From: Nitrospirota bacterium
GTDB taxonomy: Bacteria > Nitrospirota > Thermodesulfovibrionia > Thermodesulfovibrionales > Dissulfurispiraceae
Assembly (NCBI GenBank): GCA_021792185.1
Contig: JAJYVD010000007.1
Location: 1 to 64,000 of the forward strand
Direction: 5' to 3'
DNA length: 64,000 bases
The notes beneath the pieces are model-generated. The model ran no database searches. It was not told the DNA's origin and saw only the letters and a program-made list of their open reading frames with translations. The translations under genes were made by a program, and so were the position numbers. Positions within the stretch are counted from its first letter, which is position 1, and each line of letters starts with the position of its first letter. Shown here piece by piece: positions 11,910 through 23,409 of the stretch.

Positions 11910-12365
11910 TTATCGATGCACCAACACAGAAATCTTTGAACCGGCTAAAACCTTTGTCGTTACGCTGCCCAGGAAAGCGCCTATGCCTCCCCTGCCGTGG
12001 GATGCCATAATAATAAGGTCACAGCCCTTATCTTGCGCTGCCTTTATTATCTCATCGGAGGGTGATTCGCCTCTTACATAAAAACACTCACAGGGCACCC
12101 CTGCTTCCTTTGCGGTATTCTCGATCACCGAAATATACCTCGCTGCCGCGCACTCAAAGGATGCCTCGAATTTAGTCCTGAACATCTTGCCTTCCTCCGT
12201 GTTTTCAGGCGCCCATACGTCCCATATATCGCCGGGGGTGGGCTTCGGTATTACATAAAGCCCGGTTATCTTTGCATTAATGGATTTAGCGAGTTCTACC
12301 CCTCTCTTTACAGCTTCTTCAGACAGCTTTGAGCCGTCCGTAGACAATAGAATATTCCTATACAT
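11910..12365 (-). CDS. Universal stress protein (UspA family)
   Basis: The 151-residue protein starts MYRNILLSTDGSKLSEEAVK and ends with the ATP-binding signature MASHGRGGIGAFLGSVTTKV (G-2x-G-9x-G-S/T). This places it with nucleotide-binding Usp proteins. It is the last gene of the leftward sulfur operon, preceded by a clear GGAGG site, and is followed by a strong terminator. Its role in sulfur handling is unknown. Confidence 0.9.
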   Translation of the reverse strand: MYRNILLSTDGSKLSEEAVKRGVELAKSINAKITGLYVIPKPTPGDIWDVWAPENTEEGKMFRTKFEASFECAAARYISVIENTAKEAGVPCECFYVRGESPSDEIIKAAQDKGCDLIIMASHGRGGIGAFLGSVTTKVLAGSKISVLVHR

Positions 12366-12376
12366 ATATCCTCCGA

Positions 12377-12613
12377 TTACTTCTGGATTACAAAGCTGAT
12401 GCTGCCGCTTTCGTCTTTCGTTTCCAGAAGTTTATAGCCGCTCCTCTCGCAGAGGGCTGGAATACTGTGCTTGGTGCTGCTGTCATTCGCCATAACATGT
12501 AGAACCTGACCCTTTTCCATGCTCTTTAACGTACTCATGGTCATCACCATCGGCCTCGGGCATACCAGACCTTTAACATCAAGGACTTTATCGATTTTGA
12601 TTTCCGTTGTCAT
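12377..12613 (-). CDS. TusA-family sulfur carrier protein
   Basis: The 78-residue protein has the TusA signature VKGLVCPRPMVMTMSTLKSM, in which Cys18 of the CPxP motif carries persulfide. The C-terminal beta strand ends SGSISFVIQK. The gene directly follows a YedE permease, the common pairing in which YedE imports a reduced sulfur species and TusA accepts it. The start has GGAGG upstream. A second, unusual TusA paralogue is encoded at 23390-23668. Confidence 0.92.
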   Translation of the reverse strand: MTTEIKIDKVLDVKGLVCPRPMVMTMSTLKSMEKGQVLHVMANDSSTKHSIPALCERSGYKLLETKDESGSISFVIQK

Positions 12614-12622
12614 TTTACCCTC

Positions 12623-14029
12623 CTATTCTTCCATATATTTTTTGAATGTTCTGCCTGCAAACCATGTCATCACAAGTGCCCATATAAGCACGACACTTAT
12701 GGTAAAAACGACAGCTATGGGATAGCTCCCGAATATTTGAGGCAGATATACATCCGTTATATTCTTTGAACCGTACGGTGCGAATATGGTCTTAAACCAT
12801 GCCTCCTCCCTCATCGGGAAGAGCCATGAGGAAACACATATGAGCGTTAAGAGCCCTACCCATATTTTCACCTGCCCTTCGGCAGTTCTCCAGAGGCTGT
12901 CGCTGACGCATGCGCCGTTGAGCGCCATGCCGAGCCCGAACAAGGCTGAACCGATGAGTATCCCTATACCTGCAGGGCTTATGGCGAATATCTCGGCATA
13001 GGCAATATCAGGGGACACGGAGCCAAGGAGCTTGAATGGAAGAAAACCTATTACCAACAGTGCGTAGAGAAGCGCCATTGCCCTCGACATATCGCTGAAG
13101 CCTGTTAAAAAGGGCTCCCTGTATGCATAAGCAAAGCACATGCCTCCCCTCTGCATGGCAAACCCTGTAAGTGTTGCTGCCAGAAATGACATGGAGAGGG
13201 CAGGGTAGCCGATTTTGGTAAACCGTGCCAAAACAATGAACATGATAAGCGTAAGGATTACTGCCGTTACCGGCTGAAATCTTATACCGAAAGGCTCTCC
13301 TCCGTCCGCATTAGCCGGCATTTTAGGCCATATGGTCTTTGTCTTTTCAAAATGCATTAACGGCACATAGCCTGCTCCGTCGGCAGCGCATGACAGGGAT
13401 GCAAGCCTTCGCTTCTCAAGCCAGACGATTATCTTTGCCCCAAAGAATGAACCTATGGTCATGCCTATAACCATTTCGATAGCCTGAACACCCATAGCGC
13501 CTATATTGGTAGTGCTCACAAGGGGACAACCGAACATAAAGACCGCGCCTATTCCCATCATTACGCCGCCGGAAAGCGCAAGTCCATACTCTGTCTTGTC
13601 AAGCGGCACCTTGAGCGAGAACTCCTTTGCTAAAAGCGCTGCAATAAGCCCCCCGAATAGTATGCCGAGCATCGTCCCTGCCGTCGGCTCAAGGAACGGA
13701 TTTGGATACTGGACAAAATAATTTATGGTCTGACCGTCGGGCCATATATAACCGTTGAAAGGATAGTGGGGCAGCCCTATCTTGCCGAGGAAGCTGTTGA
13801 TAATGCCGCCGAGTTCTTTGAGTCCGAGGAATGTTCCCAGAGGTTTTGCCTGATCATAGGGATTCTCGCCCGTCACTGTCCTCGACAGTGACCATACGGC
13901 TACTCCGTATGCTATTATCCCCGAAAGCGCCATAAATATAGCCGCTATCCAGAGTGGCCATTTTTCTCTGAAAAATTTTTTATACCACGAGTCCCACCAG
14001 CCTTTTATACCGAAATCGAAATCGCCCAT
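12623..14029 (-). CDS. YeeE/YedE-family sulfur-compound permease
   Basis: The 468-residue polytopic protein contains paired sulf_transp (DUF395) repeats with the family's Gly-rich helices and single cysteines: MFGCPLVSTTN, QRGGMCFAYAYREPFLTG and ALNGACVSDSLWR. In thiosulfate transporters of this family (TsuA/YeeE) such in-line cysteines relay the substrate across the membrane. Adjacent TusA and rhodanese genes fit uptake of thiosulfate or another sulfane donor. The substrate is not determined. The protein is longer than the second YedE at 23668-24795. Confidence 0.88.
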   Translation of the reverse strand: MGDFDFGIKGWWDSWYKKFFREKWPLWIAAIFMALSGIIAYGVAVWSLSRTVTGENPYDQAKPLGTFLGLKELGGIINSFLGKIGLPHYPFNGYIWPDGQTINYFVQYPNPFLEPTAGTMLGILFGGLIAALLAKEFSLKVPLDKTEYGLALSGGVMMGIGAVFMFGCPLVSTTNIGAMGVQAIEMVIGMTIGSFFGAKIIVWLEKRRLASLSCAADGAGYVPLMHFEKTKTIWPKMPANADGGEPFGIRFQPVTAVILTLIMFIVLARFTKIGYPALSMSFLAATLTGFAMQRGGMCFAYAYREPFLTGFSDMSRAMALLYALLVIGFLPFKLLGSVSPDIAYAEIFAISPAGIGILIGSALFGLGMALNGACVSDSLWRTAEGQVKIWVGLLTLICVSSWLFPMREEAWFKTIFAPYGSKNITDVYLPQIFGSYPIAVVFTISVVLIWALVMTWFAGRTFKKYMEE

Positions 14030-14058: not shown

Positions 14059-14535
14059 TTAACAACCTCCGACACCCGGCGGCAAAAGCATAAACTGTAT
14101 TGTGCCTTTACCTATCTCTTTACCTGTTGCGGCATCCTTTGCCGTAACTGCCATGTCGAACTTGCCGAGCGGTTTCCCCGGCGGCACCGTGAACAATACG
14201 GATGACGAAGCCTTACCGCCCTTAACGGCAACCTCATCTTCCATTACATCGATACCGAGATCCGCAAATTTCTTCGGTATCTCAAACTTCACCTTTTTCA
14301 CATTTCCTGTAACAGTAAATTCGAAAGGCAATGTAACAGCCCTTCCGAGGGCTATCTGCGCCCTTGTAATCCCGGGCCTTCTCGGAATCCATTTAAAACC
14401 CTTGACATCCTCGGCATGTGCTTCGGATACCAATGAAACCGTAGTCTGTGCATTTTTAAATCCGCTTAATAAAGGCATTGTTAAAAATGCCAACGCCACC
14501 ATAACCGCCAACACCGTTCTCTTTTTAGTTTTCAC
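14059..14535 (-). CDS. Exported protein ending in Gly-Gly-Cys, candidate sulfur carrier
   Basis: Not recognised as a named family. The 158-residue product has a signal peptide ending near AHA41 and an Ig-like beta-rich region with strands such as TLPFEFTVTGNVKKVKFEIP. It ends exactly PPGVGGC. Cys158, the last residue, is the only cysteine. The ending recalls the SoxY swinging arm (GGCGG), where a terminal Cys binds thiosulfate sulfur. Neighbours are a YedE permease, TusA, DsrE/F/H-like proteins and a secreted rhodanese. A periplasmic sulfur-carrier role is inferred. The start is GTG 14535 with GGAGG upstream. Confidence 0.7.
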   Translation of the reverse strand: MKTKKRTVLAVMVALAFLTMPLLSGFKNAQTTVSLVSEAHAEDVKGFKWIPRRPGITRAQIALGRAVTLPFEFTVTGNVKKVKFEIPKKFADLGIDVMEDEVAVKGGKASSSVLFTVPPGKPLGKFDMAVTAKDAATGKEIGKGTIQFMLLPPGVGGC

Positions 14536-14578: not shown

Positions 14579-14743
14579 TTATTGAGAAACAGGTTCCTGT
14601 GCCGCCTTCATCTGCTCTGCCTGCTTAGCAAGGTCCCTTAACGGTTTGTCAAGCGGCGGCAGTATAAAACCCAGAGACAAAAGGGCAATAATAACCGACA
14701 CCCACAGCCACGGTAATGTAAGACCACCTTTTACCTCACCCAT
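14579..14743 (-). CDS. Small 54-residue membrane protein of the sulfur operon
   Basis: The frame from ATG 14743 encodes one transmembrane helix (about 11-30, WLWVSVIIALLSLGFILPP) and a charged helical tail (DKPLRDLAKQAEQMKAAQ). It lies between the DsrH-like gene and the GGC-ending exported protein on the same strand, and a G-run precedes the start. The helix could anchor a relay complex or partner the YedE permease, but this is only an inference from position. Confidence 0.65.
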   Translation of the reverse strand: MGEVKGGLTLPWLWVSVIIALLSLGFILPPLDKPLRDLAKQAEQMKAAQEPVSQ

Positions 14744-14795: not shown

Positions 14796-14966
14796 TCACC
14801 AGGATATAACCCTGTCATAATTAAATATGTCTTCCACGAGACTCTCATAAGAAAAATCACCATTTGCAAGGTCGATGACCTTCACATCATATTTCGCTTT
14901 ATGAACATCTATTACTCCGTTTGCGGTTTCATCCGGCTCGGATTTAAGCAAATGCAAGACCTTCAT
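14796..14966 (-). CDS. Short DsrH/TusB-like protein
   Basis: The 56-residue product starts MKVLHLLKSEPDET and ends with DRVISW. The beta-strand start and terminal Trp resemble TusB/DsrH, though it is shorter than the usual about 95 residues and lacks a cysteine. It directly follows DsrF-like and DsrE-like genes, completing a DsrEFH/TusBCD-type order. In such complexes the D/E subunit accepts sulfur from TusA. A GAGGAGG site precedes the start. The family call relies on context and a short match. Confidence 0.65.
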   Translation of the reverse strand: MKVLHLLKSEPDETANGVIDVHKAKYDVKVIDLANGDFSYESLVEDIFNYDRVISW

Positions 14967-14984: not shown

Positions 14985-15266
14985 TCAATACGGCAGGATA
15001 TTGTCATATTCAAGAAGTTTTCTTGCCATATCTTCCATGGTTATATATTGAAAATCCGTCCCCTGCCGCATTGTGAAAACTTTTATAACGCCCAGTTCCG
15101 CCATTTCTTTCATCCCCTCAAGCTGAACAACTGTCTCATCGTCATTCTTAACAGGTTGAGTTATGAATACGTCTATTGTGTCATCGAGGACAGTGAGACC
15201 GACGCTCATTCTGAACGCCTCTGCCTGTCTGTCCCTAACGACTACCGCTATTATCTTCGCACCCAC
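14985..15266 (-). CDS. DsrF/TusC-like DsrE-family protein
   Basis: The 93-residue product has an alpha/beta DsrE-family start (GAKIIAVVVRDRQAEAFRMS, VGLTVLDDTIDVF) and ends with a helical segment and DNILPY. It has no cysteine, as is normal for the non-catalytic F/C subunit. It is the second gene of an E-F-H-like set. GTG 15266 is chosen because GGAGG lies 7 nt upstream. Confidence 0.75.
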   Translation of the reverse strand: MGAKIIAVVVRDRQAEAFRMSVGLTVLDDTIDVFITQPVKNDDETVVQLEGMKEMAELGVIKVFTMRQGTDFQYITMEDMARKLLEYDNILPY

Positions 15267-15280
15267 TTATTTCCTCCTTC

Positions 15281-15583
15281 CTATAAAACAATAACCCTGT
15301 CCGCATCGTGGTTCATGGCTGCGTTGTTGTACTGGCTGCCGCAGATTATATCTTCTGGAACGCCTTCTTTCGAGACGTTGAAGACATGGGTGCTGTGGTC
15401 GCAAAAACTCATAGACACGCCCTTTGCATTACAGAGATCTCTGAAGGCAGGCTCGCCGAGAAGCCTGACGCCTTCGTCCATATTAAATATCATGACCTCA
15501 TGCCCTTTTTCTACAGCCGCCTTTGTAATGCCCAATATATGTCCGAGGTTCTTATCTGTATTCACTAAAATGCCCAGTTTCAT
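15281..15583 (-). CDS. DsrE/TusD-like sulfur-relay protein
   Basis: The 100-residue protein starts MKLGILVNTDKNLGHILGIT and carries Cys61 in GVSMSFCDHSTHV, near the position of the sulfur-accepting cysteine of TusD/DsrE. A second Cys51 is nearby. The fold is the DsrE alpha/beta type. It overlaps the archaemetzincin gene by ATGA at 15580-15583. The in-frame GTG at 15589 is less well placed relative to GAGGTG. It is the probable catalytic member of the E/F/H-like trio. Confidence 0.8.
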   Translation of the reverse strand: MKLGILVNTDKNLGHILGITKAAVEKGHEVMIFNMDEGVRLLGEPAFRDLCNAKGVSMSFCDHSTHVFNVSKEGVPEDIICGSQYNNAAMNHDADRVIVL

Positions 15584-16152
15584 GCGCACATCACCTCTTT
15601 AATATGTTCATCCCGTATTTTCACTTTGTCTCTATCGGACGGGATCCTTGTATCCAATGCCTTTCGGCATTTGATGCAGAATTCTTTACCTTTGTAATCG
15701 GTATCCGAAAGGTTATATGAGAAATACATTACGCACCTGTTATTATTGCAATGGGCAAGCCCGTATGTGTGTCCGAGTTCGTGAATTGCGGTTTTAACGG
15801 CCCTTTCAACCGACCGGCCGCTTCCCTTTTTGAACCGCGCGATGGAGACAAGGGCAACAGAACCGGCTTCATCAGCAAGGCCGAATACATAATTCAAGTC
15901 AGGGATATAGAGGTCGACATCGGTGATGCCGAGCAGCCTGTGAGGAGTTTCCCCTCGAACCCCTTCCATGAATCTCAGGAAGGCTTCGGCAGAATATTGG
16001 TTCCTCTGGCGATTATAGGCGGATTCATGGTATTGCTGCATCTCATTAACTATTGCAGTTGTTCCGAAACTCATGCTCACCTGAGTTGCAACTTCCATAA
16101 TAAGACCGCCGTCAATATCACCGAGCGGAACTATCTTTATCCTTTCACCCAT
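15580..16152 (-). CDS. amzA: Archaemetzincin-like zinc metalloprotease
   Basis: The 190-residue protein has the archaemetzincin signature HELGHTYGLAHC (H124, E125, H128, H134, C135). It is followed by C140-V-M and the second zinc-site cysteines C159 and C162 (EFCIKC). The N-terminal part includes LLGITDVDLYIP. AMZ proteases are common in archaea and patchy in bacteria; their substrates are little known. Here the gene is translationally coupled to a DsrE-like gene and follows a secreted rhodanese, so it belongs to the sulfur operon. No signal peptide is seen. Confidence 0.88.
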   Translation of the reverse strand: MGERIKIVPLGDIDGGLIMEVATQVSMSFGTTAIVNEMQQYHESAYNRQRNQYSAEAFLRFMEGVRGETPHRLLGITDVDLYIPDLNYVFGLADEAGSVALVSIARFKKGSGRSVERAVKTAIHELGHTYGLAHCNNNRCVMYFSYNLSDTDYKGKEFCIKCRKALDTRIPSDRDKVKIRDEHIKEVMCA

Positions 16153-16172: not shown

Positions 16173-17171
16173 TTACTTCTCTTCTTTCGGCGGCAGATTT
16201 AACTCTTTCCTGAGGTCTGCGATCTCTTTTTTCAGTTTCTTGATGTCTGCCGACATCTTCACAAGGCCTTCCATATTAATCCACTGCTCGTTTTCCACAG
16301 GGTATGGCGGATATACGCTGTTGCCGTATACTATCCATGAATCGTCATAGTTCGCAGGATCTTTAAAGCCCAGCAGCCTCAACTGAAGGTATGTGAGCGT
16401 TGACCGAGAACCTGTCTGACACAAGCCTATTGTCCTCTTGTTCTTATCCAGATTGCCGTAGAATTTTCCTGCTAAGAACTTATCCGGAAGTATTTTTCCC
16501 GTGCGTTTGTCATACGTGATGTCGTGGGATGCATTTATGGTTGTATTGGGAATGCGGCCTCCCCTTAAGGAACGGGATTCTTTGCCGTTGTATTCCTTTT
16601 CAGTCCTTGCATCTATAACCTGAATGCCTTTTGTCTCGCCCTTTGCAATCTTAACGATCTCCTCTGTTGAAGCATACCTGGATGGAACAACATTGGCCTT
16701 GAATGTTGCCTGAGGCAGTGTCTTCGGCTCTGTTGTTACAGACTTTCCAGCCGCTTTCCATTCAGTGAGGCCTCCGTCAAGAAAATGAGTCTTATCATGA
16801 CCCATGTATTCAAGTATCCAGAATCCAACACTTGCATGGACTATATCCTTTGCATCTCCATATACAACAACATGCTTGTCATTACCAATGCCTGCATTTC
16901 CGAGTATCTTTTCCAACTGTGCAGGCTTCAATATCCTTTCTGTTCCATCCCTCAAATCCTTCCTGCAATCAAGAACTATAGCTCCGGGGATATGCCCTTT
17001 CTCGTATGCCTCTTTGCCCCGGCAGTCAAGGATTACCCAGTCAGGTTTTGCAGCAACCTTCTCCAAATCATCGGGATTCATTAAGAGATCCGGATTTGCC
17101 CATCCATAGGCATTTGCGGAAACAGCCATAAAGACAGCTACCATTACCAATACTAATGTCTTCCCTCTCAT
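16173..17171 (-). CDS. Exported tandem-domain rhodanese (sulfurtransferase)
   Basis: The 332-residue protein has a signal peptide (cleavage near SANA20) and two rhodanese domains (about 30-140 and 165-285). It ends in a predicted coiled coil (about 300-325). The second domain holds the active loop LCQTGSRST with Cys251. The first has Asp in the corresponding YGDAKD loop and is probably structural. It moves sulfane sulfur from a donor such as thiosulfate to a thiol acceptor, probably in the periplasm. It is the first gene of the leftward sulfur operon, behind a sigma54-type promoter and a strong GAGGAGG site. Confidence 0.93.
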   Translation of the reverse strand: MRGKTLVLVMVAVFMAVSANAYGWANPDLLMNPDDLEKVAAKPDWVILDCRGKEAYEKGHIPGAIVLDCRKDLRDGTERILKPAQLEKILGNAGIGNDKHVVVYGDAKDIVHASVGFWILEYMGHDKTHFLDGGLTEWKAAGKSVTTEPKTLPQATFKANVVPSRYASTEEIVKIAKGETKGIQVIDARTEKEYNGKESRSLRGGRIPNTTINASHDITYDKRTGKILPDKFLAGKFYGNLDKNKRTIGLCQTGSRSTLTYLQLRLLGFKDPANYDDSWIVYGNSVYPPYPVENEQWINMEGLVKMSADIKKLKKEIADLRKELNLPPKEEK

Positions 17172-17499: not shown

Positions 17500-18264
17500 A
17501 TGGAACGGTATGGATTGATCCTAATAATCGCAATGACTTTTATACTAACACTGAATGTTTATGTCTTCGCACAGGAGATCAAACTGGGGGCGGGCGCTGC
17601 TCCTGTAGAGAATGTCTTAAAGCCGGTAAAAGAACCCTTTGAAAAGGCAACGGGAATAAAGCTCACCATTATTGCTTCCGGACCGAAGATCGCATTGATA
17701 GATCTGGAGAAGGGCGCTGTGGATGCAGCGGCAGCCGGTCTTTCCTTTGATGATTGGATGGGTCTTATGAAGAAAGAAGGCGCAGAGGTAAAAGATCCGT
17801 CATCCCTTCAGCAGGTGACCATAGGAAAAGACAAGATTATTGTGCTCATGCACAAAGACAATCCGATATCAAAGCTTTCAAAGGAGCAGTTGAAGGGCAT
17901 ATTTACCGGGAAAACGACTAACTGGAAAGATGTGGGCGGGAAAGACATGCCGATTATAGTTGTATGGGGCAAGCTTATTCCCAGCACGAACAGTTTGTTT
18001 ATAAAACATATCCTCGACGGGGAACCACAGACAAAGGATGTCCTTGAAGCGACCACTGCCGAGGATATAAGGCAGAATGTGGTATCGAATCAGGAAGCTG
18101 TAGGCATCGGCCCGGCAGCGGTAGTAAATGCCGCCGTAAAATCCCCCGAGACACCTGAAGTAGCAAGACCGATAATTCTGCTTACAAAGGGCAAGCCTTC
18201 TCCAAATGTCCAAAAGTTGATAGAGTTCATCAAAGGTGAGGGTCAGAAGTATATAAGGCAGTAG
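17500..18264 (+). CDS. PstS-like periplasmic substrate-binding protein
   Basis: The 254-residue protein has a signal peptide ending VFAQ and a type 2 periplasmic binding fold of the PstS/PBP-like group. It has LGAGAAPVENVLKPV at the start, a LEKGAVDAAAAGLSFDDW segment, the hinge-region DNPISKLSKEQLKGIFTGKT (with TNWKDVGG following) and a late EAVGIGPAA stretch. No ABC permease or ATPase is nearby. Only 12 nt separate it from a chemoreceptor gene, so it may present a ligand, perhaps an oxyanion, to that receptor. The ligand is unknown. Confidence 0.85.
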   Translation: MERYGLILIIAMTFILTLNVYVFAQEIKLGAGAAPVENVLKPVKEPFEKATGIKLTIIASGPKIALIDLEKGAVDAAAAGLSFDDWMGLMKKEGAEVKDPSSLQQVTIGKDKIIVLMHKDNPISKLSKEQLKGIFTGKTTNWKDVGGKDMPIIVVWGKLIPSTNSLFIKHILDGEPQTKDVLEATTAEDIRQNVVSNQEAVGIGPAAVVNAAVKSPETPEVARPIILLTKGKPSPNVQKLIEFIKGEGQKYIRQ

Positions 18265-18276
18265 GGGGAGAGATTC

Positions 18277-20730
18277 ATGAAAATAAAGACGAAACTGACA
18301 TGGAATGTCATTATTGTAATCGTGATTGTCGGCGCCGTTGCTACAACGAGCATTATAGGCATGGGGTTTGTTAAAAGCAAACTCTTTTACCTTACGGAAC
18401 GGAGCACACCTTATCAGGTAAGGACGCTCGAACTCCAACGGGCAATACAGGGAACCACTGCCGACCTCGTCAAGGTAAATGCCTCAAAGGGCATGGAAGA
18501 ATATAAGACCCATCACTCCGAAGCCGAAAAATCTCTGTCAGAGGTTAAGAATACGCAAGACGCATTGGAGTCTCTGTCAGGAGGCACAAAGATGGAGACC
18601 TACAATGAATTGAGCCGTATAGCAAAAGAGGTTTTCGAGATAACAGAAGGCAGATTAAAGGCTGAAGAAGATGCAGTTACCGCAAACAAAACCATTACTC
18701 AGAGGTTGAAAGATGCCTCGGTAAAACTGGACGATATGGATACAAAAATGAGATCTGTCCAGTTTAACCGTTCCGCAGCTTTTAACACATCGATGGAAGA
18801 CACAAAAGCAGTTACAACGAAAACGAGGAGCATAGAAAACCTAAAGGTATCATTAAAGGATGTGCAGGTCTCTATTTTTGAGATACAACGGGCTTCCGAT
18901 AAAAAAACCCTTCTAATAGCCCGCGGCAAAGCTAATTCAGCGCTGAACAAAACATTACAGAACGAATATTTGAAAGAGTCCAAACACATTCATGACGATA
19001 TAAAACTCATCGGAAATATGACAGCTAATCTTGCGGAACGCCAGATGGAACTGATGGAAAAGGCCGGCGCCGATAGAAGCAAATTCGAAGAGACTTTAAA
19101 GGGAGTAACCGAGAAACTCTCGGCTATTTTATTGAATATAGAACAGGAGATAATAGCAGCCGCCGATAAGTTTACGGCTGAGGCGGCAAAACAGGGAAGT
19201 CTGGTGGTGGAGGCAAATACAGCCAACAACGCCCTCATAAGGAGTTCAAAGCTTGTTGCGCTCAGCTTTAATGTAGAGGGTTTGACGACGAGGCTTTTCA
19301 CCGGAATATCAAGCATAAAGGAAGTTGATGTTATAGAGTCGGAGATCAGAAAGACATTTGAAAAAATAGACAATGTAATTAAACCCATTGAGACTGCGCT
19401 TAAAAAATTAGAGGTCAAAGAGGAGGCCAAGACCCTCGAGGGCGTTAAAGGGGCATTGAATTCCATTAAAGGAATGCTGCTCGCAAGGGACGGCATAATT
19501 GCAAAGATAAGACATCAGCTTACCATGAAGGAAAAGGCGCTGCAGGCTACCGAGAGATTGAGGGAAATAGTCCTGAAGCAGGCCCAAAAGGGCAAAGAGA
19601 CCGTTACCGCTGCCCAGGGAGAGCAGGAAAAATCTATCGGAACAGTGAACAAGATGGTGAGATTCAGCACCATACTTGTAATAGCGATAGGCATAGGAGC
19701 AGTTGTGTTCGGCATCTCATTCGGCACCTGGGTCTACAGATCAATAGCAAAACCTTTAAACGAACTTATAGAAATATCAAACGATGTGGCAAACGGGGAT
19801 TTGACAACAGAGATATGTGCGCGTCCTGTAGACGAGATCGGCACAGTTCAGTCATCCATGTGCACAATGGTATCAAACCTTAAAGATATAGTCGGAAAGA
19901 TACGGACATCTACTGGGAGTCTTGCAAGCAGCTCGGAGGAGTTGTCGGCTACCGCAACTACAATAGAGAAGGGCTCGCATGAACAGGGCATGCAGATAGA
20001 GCAGTCTGCAACGGCAATGACAGAGATGTCGCAGACAACACTGGATGTGGCAAAGAATGCATCCCACACGGCGGATACTGCTCAGAAGATGAAGAAAATA
20101 GCGCTTCAGGGCAAAGACGCAATGCGCATCACCATGCAGGAACTGCAAAAGTTTGCTGAAACGGTCAAGGAATCCGCAGAAAAGGTGGAATCCCTCGGAC
20201 AGAAATCGGAGGAGATAAACAATGTCATAACATTGATAAAAGATATAGCAGACCAGACAAACCTCCTCGCATTGAATGCCGCAATAGAAGCTGCACGCGC
20301 AGGTGAGCAGGGGAGAGGGTTTGCTGTCGTAGCGGACAATGTCAGACAGCTTGCGGAAAGGACAACTGTTGCAACCGGCGATATTGGAAACACTGTTAGG
20401 GCAATGCAGACTGAGGTTTCCGACTCTGTGAAGTTCATGAAGGAAGAGAGGGAATCTGTCGGAAAGGTGCTTGAGCATGTAAACAGTACATTGAAGTCCA
20501 TAGACGATATAGTCGCATACGTTGAACAGGTTGCCGACATGGTGCAGCGTATCGCAGTAGCTACCGAGGAGCAGTCTTCCGCCTCCGAGGAGGTTTCCCA
20601 CAATATGGAAAACATTGCAGTAATAACGAGGGAGTTGGGCAACTCTCTCGTTGAAATAAAGCGTGCAGCAGGAGACCTTTCAAAGCTTGCCACCGAACTA
20701 AATTCCATGGCAGGGTGGTTTAAAGTGTAA
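18277..20730 (+). CDS. Methyl-accepting chemotaxis protein
   Basis: The 817-residue receptor has TM1 (about 9-30), a very long, largely helical periplasmic region (about 30-458), TM2 (about 460-485), HAMP (about 486-540) and the cytoplasmic signalling hairpin. The CheA/CheW-binding tip [20 protein letters not shown] lies near residue 660. The sensor region is about twice the size of Tsr-type domains, which fits docking of a binding protein or multiple helical bundles. It is cotranscribed with the PstS-like gene and divergent from the sulfur operon. Chemotaxis toward a sulfur or oxyanion source is inferred. Confidence 0.95.
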
Positions 20731-20780: not shown

Positions 20781-22118
20781 TTAATCGAGATTATACTTCT
20801 TAAGTTTTCTCCAGAGTGTAGCGTGACTAATGCCCAATGCGCGGGCAGCAGAGTCCCTCTTACCGTTAAAGAACCTCAATGCGGATTGGATTAACTGCCT
20901 TTCCATGTCTTCGAGTCTTACGATGCCCTTCGGCGATAACATCTCTCTCGGACGGGATATGACTTCCGCCGGAAGGGAAGAAATACCTATCTTCTTTCCA
21001 TATTCTAAGATTACGGCCCTCTCGATAACATGTTCCAGTTCCCTGACATTGCCGGGCCAATCGTATGTGAGAAGGGCATCCATCGCCTCTGTTGTGAAAC
21101 CTATAATGTCTTTACCGAATTTCCCGCGATACCTGTCGAGGAAATGGTGCGACAGGAGCGGTATATCATCGCGCCTTTCCCTAAGCGAAGGCATGGTAAT
21201 GGTCACTACCTTAAGGCGGTAGTACAGGTCCTGCCTGAACCTGCTTTCATCAATCTCTTTTTTGAGCAGTATATTACTTGCGGCAATAATGCGGACATCC
21301 ACAGGAACCGTTTCCGTAGAGCCGATCCTCATGATCCTTCCATCTTCCAGCACTTTTAGGAGTTTTATCTGCATGCCCGGGCTCGCGCTGTTTATCTCAT
21401 CGAGAAACAACGTCCCTCCATGCGCTGCCTCGAAAAGACCGTGCTTCTCTTTTATGGCTCCGGTGAAGGCTCCCTTTTCATGCCCGAAGAGTTCCGATTC
21501 AAGAAGTGTCTCTGTAAGCGCACCGCAGTTTATACTCAGGAATTTCCCTGACGCCCTTTTGCTTATCCTGTGAATCGTCTTGGCCACAAGATTTTTCCCT
21601 GTACCGGTCTCTCCTTCTATGACTACGGTAGTGTCGAGCGGCCCGATCCTCTCGACAAGCCTTTTTACTTCCATAATCCGGGGGCTTGTGCCTATCATCT
21701 CCTCTGCCTTGCATGACTCAAGCTGGCTCGAAAGCCTTAAATTTTCATCGGCAAGCCTTTTATAGTCCAGCGCTTTTTTTATAACCAGCATGAGTTCCTC
21801 GGGTTCAAAGGGTTTCTGTATATAGTCGTATGCGCCGAGTTTCATGGCCTCGATGGCTGATTCCACAGTCCCGTATGCGGTGATTACTATGACCAGACTC
21901 TCGGGATTAAGCTCCCGCGCCCTTGAGAGGATGGTAATACCGTCTATGTCCGGCATCTTAAGGTCCGTGATTACAAGGTCGAATGTCCTTCTCTCAAGGA
22001 GGTCGAGACCTTCCTCACCGTTCTTTGCCGTAAACACGGAACGGCCGTCGCCGCTCAGTATCTCCTTCAGGAGTTCCCTCATCCTAAGGTCATCTTCTAT
22101 CGCCAGGATATCAAACAT
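20781..22118 (-). CDS. NtrC-family sigma54-dependent response regulator
   Basis: The protein of about 445 residues has a receiver domain (acidic pair EDD and phospho-acceptor Asp in DLVITDLKMPD) and an AAA+ domain with Walker A GETGTGKN. The sigma54-contact loop reads ESELFGHEKGAFTGA and Walker B GGTLFLDEINSA. A Fis-type HTH ends with ALGISHATLWRKLKKY. It activates sigma54 RNA polymerase from remote sites. It overlaps the upstream kinase gene. ATG 22118 is chosen over 22133 because a G-run lies just upstream. It is the best local candidate to bind the TTTCA-N3-TGAAA sites. Confidence 0.93.
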   Translation of the reverse strand: MFDILAIEDDLRMRELLKEILSGDGRSVFTAKNGEEGLDLLERRTFDLVITDLKMPDIDGITILSRARELNPESLVIVITAYGTVESAIEAMKLGAYDYIQKPFEPEELMLVIKKALDYKRLADENLRLSSQLESCKAEEMIGTSPRIMEVKRLVERIGPLDTTVVIEGETGTGKNLVAKTIHRISKRASGKFLSINCGALTETLLESELFGHEKGAFTGAIKEKHGLFEAAHGGTLFLDEINSASPGMQIKLLKVLEDGRIMRIGSTETVPVDVRIIAASNILLKKEIDESRFRQDLYYRLKVVTITMPSLRERRDDIPLLSHHFLDRYRGKFGKDIIGFTTEAMDALLTYDWPGNVRELEHVIERAVILEYGKKIGISSLPAEVISRPREMLSPKGIVRLEDMERQLIQSALRFFNGKRDSAARALGISHATLWRKLKKYNLD

Positions 22119-23409
22119 CGACGCCCCCGTCATTTAGTCTGAAATAAAACTTGGCGCCTTTGCCCTTTTCGCTCTCGACACGGATATTACTGCCGTGTTT
22201 CTTCAATATCTCGGAACATATGCTCAGACCGAGCCCGGTGCCTTTACCTACTGGCTTTGTAGTAAAGAACGGCTCGAAAATCCTGCACAAATGCTCCCTG
22301 TGTATGCCGGGGCCGTCGTCCTTTATGGTGACCTCCACCGCGCCGTTCACGGCCTCGCTCCTTACCTCCGCGGTGCCGCCCGTTCCTTCCATAGACTGCA
22401 CCGCATTGAGGAGTATGTTGTAGACAACCTGTTCCATCTGTTTCGGATCGGCCATTACATGCGGAACCTTACCGAGTCTCTTTAAGACCTCTATATTATT
22501 GCCTTCAATCTCTCCGTTCAGGGATTGAAGTGCCCGCTCTATGCAAGTATTTATGGAAATCCTCTCAAAGACAGGCATCTTTTGGTGCGAGAATTCGAGG
22601 AGACCTTTTATGATCCCGCTTCCCATTTTCGCCTGCTCTACAATTACCTTCACCCTCTCCCTCTGGGACTCCGCGGTATTTTTATCCATAAGGAGAAGCT
22701 TTGCGTAACCGAGAATATTGCCGAGGGGATTGTTCAATTCGTGGGCGATACCAGCAGCAAGCTGTCCGACAGCGGCAAGTTTTTCGGACTGGCACATTGC
22801 ATCTTCCGCCCTTTTCTTTTCGGTTATATCCATATTTACTTCCACCACGCCGATAATATCTCCTTTTTTATCCTTCAGGGGAGACGTGGCGATCTGAAAG
22901 ACCCTGCCCTTTTTGATTACCTCCTTTAACATGCCCGCCCGTCCGGTTTCGAGCGTTTCTATGGCCGGGCACATGAGCGACGGAGAGTCTATGCCGCAAT
23001 AGACCTCATAACAGTGTTCTCCTTCTATCCGGGCAATGCCGTTTGCAAGAAGCTCTTTTTGCTTTTCATTGCATTTGATTATTCTCAGATCCCGGTCGAT
23101 AATGGATATGCCGACGCCTGCGGTATCAAAGACCGCCTGAAGATAGTCCCTCGCAATCTGCAATTGCCGGTTGCTCTCCTGTAAATGCTCCAGCACCTGT
23201 TCAAACGATTCTGCGATGATGCCGATGGGATCGACAGCAATAAGACTTTCATCGTTAAGCTCCTCTTCCCTCAGGGGCTTTGTCCCCATAATCTGCAGCA
23301 ACTGGTTTACCTTGTCCCTTATGTACCGGAGCAGAACCGTGTTCTTTCTTTCTACATCTTCCATTCCCGCCGACGGGTATGTGCGGTTGTTACGCCTGCC
23401 GGTCTTCAT
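22111..23409 (-). CDS. Soluble PAS sensor histidine kinase (NtrB-like)
   Basis: The 432-residue kinase has an N-terminal helical region, a PAS domain (about 88-205), HisKA with AAGIAHELNNPLGNILGYAK and HATPase_c with DDGPGI and [10 protein letters not shown]. No transmembrane helix is seen, so it senses a cytoplasmic signal. The PAS contains clustered cysteines (HCYEVYCG, LMCPAIET) that could bind a cofactor or respond to redox or persulfide. It sits between a TusA gene and its response-regulator gene, overlapping both, so intracellular sulfur status is a reasonable signal. Confidence 0.92.
   Translation of the reverse strand: MKTGRRNNRTYPSAGMEDVERKNTVLLRYIRDKVNQLLQIMGTKPLREEELNDESLIAVDPIGIIAESFEQVLEHLQESNRQLQIARDYLQAVFDTAGVGISIIDRDLRIIKCNEKQKELLANGIARIEGEHCYEVYCGIDSPSLMCPAIETLETGRAGMLKEVIKKGRVFQIATSPLKDKKGDIIGVVEVNMDITEKKRAEDAMCQSEKLAAVGQLAAGIAHELNNPLGNILGYAKLLLMDKNTAESQRERVKVIVEQAKMGSGIIKGLLEFSHQKMPVFERISINTCIERALQSLNGEIEGNNIEVLKRLGKVPHVMADPKQMEQVVYNILLNAVQSMEGTGGTAEVRSEAVNGAVEVTIKDDGPGIHREHLCRIFEPFFTTKPVGKGTGLGLSICSEILKKHGSNIRVESEKGKGAKFYFRLNDGGVDV

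Follow-up and report, generated by a model that had tools for sequence, protein, structure and literature searches.

The window analysed here, a stretch of 64,000 nucleotides from a Nitrospirota bacterium (contig JAJYVD010000007.1), carries on its minus strand, at 14059 to 14535, a gene with a GTG start and a TAA stop for a 158-residue member of a conserved family, which we call the GVGGC protein and regard as a candidate periplasmic sulfur carrier. The translation from 14535 to 14059 ends in LLPPGVGGC, and its single cysteine is residue 158, the last one, just as an earlier note on this DNA had claimed. A ribosome-binding-like GGAGGTG stands immediately 5' of the GTG, and a close relative has ATG at the equivalent position. 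The codons of the Gly-Val-Gly-Gly-Cys tail occupy 14062 to 14076 (minus strand). Residues 1 to 41 (14413 to 14535, minus strand) form a hydrophobic N-terminal stretch, predicted from the sequence only to be an export signal, whose AxA motif (AHA, residues 39 to 41) is common to close relatives and found at the same place in orthologues; because of this stretch and the conserved motif, export of the GVGGC protein is likely.

The gene belongs to an operon encoded on one strand (minus) with short gaps, in the order rhodanese, archaemetzincin, DsrE/F/H, 54-aa membrane protein, GVGGC protein, YedE, TusA, and universal stress protein. The catalytic residue of the exported tandem rhodanese (16173 to 17171) is Cys251 (LCQTGSR), which in an alignment coincides with the active site of solved thiosulfate sulfurtransferases. 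The rhodanese is followed by an archaemetzincin-family metalloprotease (15580 to 16152; NF033823, 164.9 bits against a cut-off of 145), which is conserved in the cluster and present in most clusters with a GVGGC gene; we know of no role for archaemetzincins in sulfur transfer. The DsrE-like subunit (15281 to 15589), whose PF02635 match is a weak one (E 2.7e-4, just under the cut-off), carries Cys63 in SFCDHS, the likely active site, which is invariant in 14 sequences. The next two genes have no Pfam match and are assigned to DsrEFH type II, by position for the DsrF-like subunit (14985 to 15266; 93 aa, no Cys) and by position and same-order homologues for the DsrH-like subunit (14796 to 14966; 56 aa) (PMC13293266). 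From its position, Cys63 would be the counterpart of the Cys67 described for DsrEFH type II (PMC13293266). The 54-aa membrane protein (14579 to 14743; GLTLPWLWVA..ALGFMLPPLD), with one helix, no Cys, and no Pfam match, is strongly conserved beside the GVGGC gene, which it adjoins in most relatives. The possibility that it is Eyh, a short protein associated with sulfur disproportionation, was rejected, Eyh being an FlhB-like protein of 89 to 122 aa (PMC8780430).

On the other side of the GVGGC gene, the 468-aa YedE/YeeE-family sulfur transporter (12623 to 14029) starts 29 bp downstream, and TusA (12377 to 12613; Cys18) comes next, so that the neighborhood announced in the earlier note is confirmed by the matches of both proteins (PF04143, E 1e-34 and 120.6 bits against a cut-off of 27; PF01206, E 2e-21). 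The operon ends with a universal stress protein (11910 to 12365; PF00582). The cysteines Cys168, Cys298, and Cys374 of YedE align with those of TsuA (6leo), and the protein has the defining features of YeeE/YedE transporters. Its halves match TsuA in swapped order (282-394 on TsuA 6-111 and 117-171 on TsuA 242-296), which may be a real permutation or a cross-matching, since the halves are repeats. The cysteines that could form a relay around the GVGGC protein, namely, C251 of the rhodanese, C168/C298/C374 of YedE, C18 of TusA, and C63 of DsrE, are invariant among the aligned relatives, where the exported rhodanese, YedE, and TusA are the constant surroundings of GVGGC genes.

Part of this gene set is already known. 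YTD clusters are composed of yedE, tusA, dsrE, and two small genes (PMC9751629, PMC8780430, PMC12998232), and a dsrE-like gene with its two small neighbors (two CHPs, corresponding to DsrF and DsrH) was shown in 2026 to be DsrEFH type II, which in vitro accepts sulfur from TusA and hands it on to DsrC (PMC13293266). Substrate specificity was ascribed to a still unknown uptake system (PMC13293266), and the periplasmic donor to YedE is left open in these studies (PMC9751629, PMC8780430, PMC12998232, PMC13293266). The synteny as defined there (PMC13293266, PMC9751629) is present in the window, with yedE, tusA, and dsrE accompanied by two small Dsr-like genes as in Dsr-carrying Nitrospirota (PMC13293266, PMC9751629, PMC12998232), but the window cluster adds the GVGGC gene, the 54-aa membrane protein, the exported rhodanese, and the archaemetzincin. 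Since published DsrEFH-type-II/YTD clusters from elsewhere contain no such protein, the GVGGC protein is not essential to the pathway. We found no description of it in the literature (CHP3 of PMC12998232 could not be compared), and it is a real, conserved, and apparently undescribed component of an already known gene cluster.

The earlier note had proposed an alignment of homologues as a check, with same-context homologues devoid of the terminal cysteine as the contrary case. All 17 aligned full-length orthologues of the GVGGC type keep the terminal GGC (16 with GVGGC, one with GAGGC), down to distant ones with 47 to 58% identity to the protein of the window. As these residues are retained while their synonymous codons differ (GGT, GGC, or GGA for glycine; TGT or TGC for cysteine), the terminal GGC cannot be attributed to chance. 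The terminal cysteine is the sole one of the mature domain in 11/17 orthologues, and the other six have one more. Homologues of the family were found in 23/230 genomes of the same class and, in a sample drawn evenly from the phylum, in none outside the class. When 84,980 species were scanned with a strict motif, 13 loci were returned, all titled Nitrospirae or Thermodesulfovibrionales except for one unclassified record, which comes from a genome of that order, and no relative was found in plasmid and viral collections.

Paralogues, often encoded directly upstream of the GVGGC gene, end in CxC (ECLC, ECMC, or KCSC), several of them with 20 to 30 additional residues beyond this motif. Two genomes also have a paralogue ending in AGGD, which groups among the GVGGC forms on the tree with weak support, a position that fits a secondary loss of the cysteine. 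It was rejected as a refutation of the conservation of the terminal cysteine because an intact GVGGC copy is retained alongside; no orthologue lacks the cysteine. The mature domain of the AGGD paralogue (L008:1185-1538, L010:1199-1552, also G067) has no Cys, and the gene lies beside those of ECLC and GVGGC paralogues, so its product could be a silent partner comparable to SoxZ.

The GVGGC gene is linked to one particular group of transporters. The orthologue group of the window's YedE, delimited at E 1e-60 with no match between E 1e-249 and 1e-60, is present in 16/230 genomes of the class with 76 to 100% identity, and in 16/16 of them a GVGGC gene adjoins yedE or is separated from it solely by the rhodanese and DsrEFH genes. 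In three genomes, the YedE encoded near a GVGGC or GAGGC gene is a different one. The co-occurrence with dsrB was discarded as support for the link: dsrB is found in 22/23 genomes with the family versus 200/230 in the class, and a gene nearly universal in the class provides no test.

The AlphaFold2 model of the mature domain, built from 29 sequences, is an Ig-like beta-sandwich followed by a 7-residue tail. Its mean pLDDT of 91 supports the beta-rich mature protein anticipated in the earlier note, with a pLDDT of 73 in the last block, which covers the tail. Searches of the PDB with Foldseek and VIA-align returned many generic Ig-like domains, the best being WxLIP (Z 10.0, rmsd 2.9 over 107 residues); SoxY or SoxYZ chains were not among the matches listed, which excludes nothing. 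The predicted Ig-like fold, being common, gives no functional lead. Pfam and NCBIfam scans of the GVGGC protein and 29 family members identified no credible family, and the family profile gave chance matches only against the sequences of solved structures (E 0.73 and above).

The tail had been likened in the earlier note to a SoxY arm without the two final glycines. SoxY folds as an Ig-like sandwich, which would be of the same general class as the fold predicted here, and the predicted export, beta-sandwich, and GGC-bearing C-terminal arm of the GVGGC protein are all reminiscent of SoxY (PF13501). The comparison is apt for the tail, since the invariant GGC of the 17 orthologues corresponds to the GGC(GG) arm of SoxY, and true SoxY proteins of Nitrospirota have two tail forms, GGCGG and a bare terminal GGC. 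Kinship is another matter: hhalign gave a probability of 0.2% for SoxY and of 0.7% for SoxZ (PF08770) against the GVGGC family, versus 98.2% for the SoxY-SoxZ positive control, so that SoxY membership is unsupported. We therefore consider a strongly diverged SoxY or SoxZ descendant, having retained the fold class and the GGC arm, to be quite improbable even though SoxYs with a bare terminal GGC exist in the phylum; Pfam SoxY or SoxZ matches were obtained for 0/29 family members, and the Sec-like leader of the GVGGC protein lacks the Tat-like RR motif that the leaders in the SoxY set have. Moreover, neither SoxY nor SoxZ was found in the host genome, SoxZ occurs in 9/23 genomes with the family (SoxY in the same 9), and the GVGGC gene lies in a DsrEFH/YedE cluster, not in a sox cluster. 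By analogy, the GVGGC protein probably works like SoxY. The SoxYs that stop at GGC and lack the usual final GG are encoded at L090:12926-13903 and at loci L117-L122 and L126-L128, and in one genome (G005) the contig with the GVGGC gene also carries a GGC-ending SoxY, SoxZ, a second SoxY-like protein, and DUF302 and DsrE genes.

A second point of comparison is the SoxT1A module of Hyphomicrobium denitrificans, in which SoxYZ is the proposed sulfur donor to the YeeE-like SoxT1A (PMC11582611), a role close to the one considered here. Among the genes neighboring that of SoxT1A, one encodes a membrane protein of 56 aa without Cys and another a periplasmic protein whose extreme C terminus bears a Cys pair (PMC11582611). 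Both modules combine a YeeE-like transporter and a rhodanese with a periplasmic partner that has a cysteine motif at its C terminus and with a Cys-less one-helix membrane protein of ~55 aa (PMC11582611), the 54-aa and 56-aa proteins being alike in size, predicted topology, and absence of Cys, the features by which they were compared. In contrast, the partner in the SoxT1A module is DsbA-like with a thioredoxin fold, its rhodanese is cytoplasmic, and its sulfur comes on SoxYZ (PMC11582611).

This comparison bears on the main rival to a carrier. The lone conserved terminal cysteine is also compatible with a redox role or a disulfide-linked dimer, and the GVGGC protein could be a periplasmic thiol-redox or structural partner whose Cys158 would form a disulfide, be it with itself, a CxC paralogue, or the rhodanese, without carrying sulfur, and which would reduce or release sulfur from another carrier or hold a complex together. 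Paralogues of the same cluster ending in CxC (ECLC, ECMC, or KCSC) could cycle as a disulfide, and the DsbA-like protein with the C-terminal Cys pair was proposed to release the sulfur of SoxYZ (PMC11582611). However, the GVGGC protein of the window has a single Cys and, in its model, no thioredoxin fold, and several genomes, including the host, have neither a CxC paralogue nor SoxYZ as a target, so we regard such a role as unlikely.

In the reading that we favor as probable, the GVGGC protein acts in the periplasm as a carrier or adaptor that delivers sulfane sulfur to YedE. The Ig-like beta-sandwich would hold a short flexible C-terminal arm, whose Cys158 would take sulfane sulfur as a persulfide, polysulfide, or thiosulfonate, with either the exported rhodanese or, directly, polysulfide or thiosulfate as its source, and would offer it at the periplasmic mouth of the neighboring YedE. 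Sulfur would then pass from YedE to TusA, DsrE(FH), and DsrC, feeding Dsr-based sulfur oxidation or disproportionation. We infer the loading of Cys158, the contacts with its partners, and a flow directed from rhodanese to YedE. The Cys-less AGGD paralogue and the residues beyond CxC in several paralogues count against this reading. A cysteine on a flexible C-terminal arm also serves sulfur transfer in DsrC/TusE. In contrast, DsrC/TusE proteins are cytoplasmic, differ in fold, and have a penultimate Cys. The new periplasmic sulfur carrier for rhodanese or YedE suggested by the earlier note is partly supported, by the conserved terminal Cys, the constant rhodanese/YedE/TusA neighborhood, and a YedE group never found without a GVGGC gene, while its likeness to SoxY holds as an analogy only. 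In Dsr-based sulfur oxidation and disproportionation, it is an open question how sulfane sulfur arrives at YeeE/YedE transporters, and a dedicated carrier beside YedE would, if confirmed, fill the uptake gap in bacteria without SoxYZ. The mass shift of a single cysteine would then serve as a simple assay, and the carrier gene would mark this branch of sulfur uptake in the genomes of uncultured Nitrospirota.

Relatives with a different cluster rhodanese have a lipoprotein of 435 to 475 aa with a Gly-rich tail and a terminal Cys (NIGC, KTGC, KVGC, QVGC, or HVGC), followed in the clusters checked by a Porin_O_P porin. These tandem-rhodanese lipoproteins are encoded at L094:8086-9507, L101:7821-9245, L024:8953-10347, L023:12250-13554, L022:2830-4152, L102:10570-11943, L027:12181-13593, and L028:12094-13485. 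Their terminal-Cys arm is independent of that of the unrelated GVGGC protein, and because two unrelated proteins of one cluster end in this way, which is otherwise hard to explain, a role for a Gly-rich terminal-Cys arm is indicated. A broader proposal, to which we give slightly less than an even chance, is that the GVGGC protein represents a new SoxYZ-independent class of terminal-Cys carriers dedicated to one YedE group, within an outer-to-inner relay of porin, rhodanese lipoprotein, GVGGC protein, YedE, TusA, and DsrEFH, and that unrelated proteins acquired Gly-rich C-terminal Cys arms on at least two occasions.

One relative has a rhodanese (L093:1937-3328, minus strand) with an in-frame TGA (2357-2359) at the position of the catalytic Cys (VY[TGA]RTGVIAS), and since its genome encodes SelB, this is probably a selenocysteine rhodanese. 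This gene also speaks for a role in selenium trafficking, in which the GVGGC protein would carry selenide or perselenide; relatives of YedE and of TusA/YedF act in selenium metabolism, and the best score of the window's YedE is with the selenium YedE/FdhT model (96.8 bits). Such a role appears highly improbable to us, with both proteins far below the cut-offs of the selenium models (96.8 of 350 bits for YedE; 58.6 of 79 for TusA with YedF) and with DsrEFH neighbors indicative of Dsr sulfur metabolism.

Beyond the operon, the plus strand of the window encodes at 17500 to 20730 a phosphate-binding-like protein and a chemoreceptor, located between the rhodanese and a sigma-54-type response regulator (20781 to 22133). 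In a sister genome, the sigma-54-type response regulator (L017:5913-7262) directly precedes the rhodanese.
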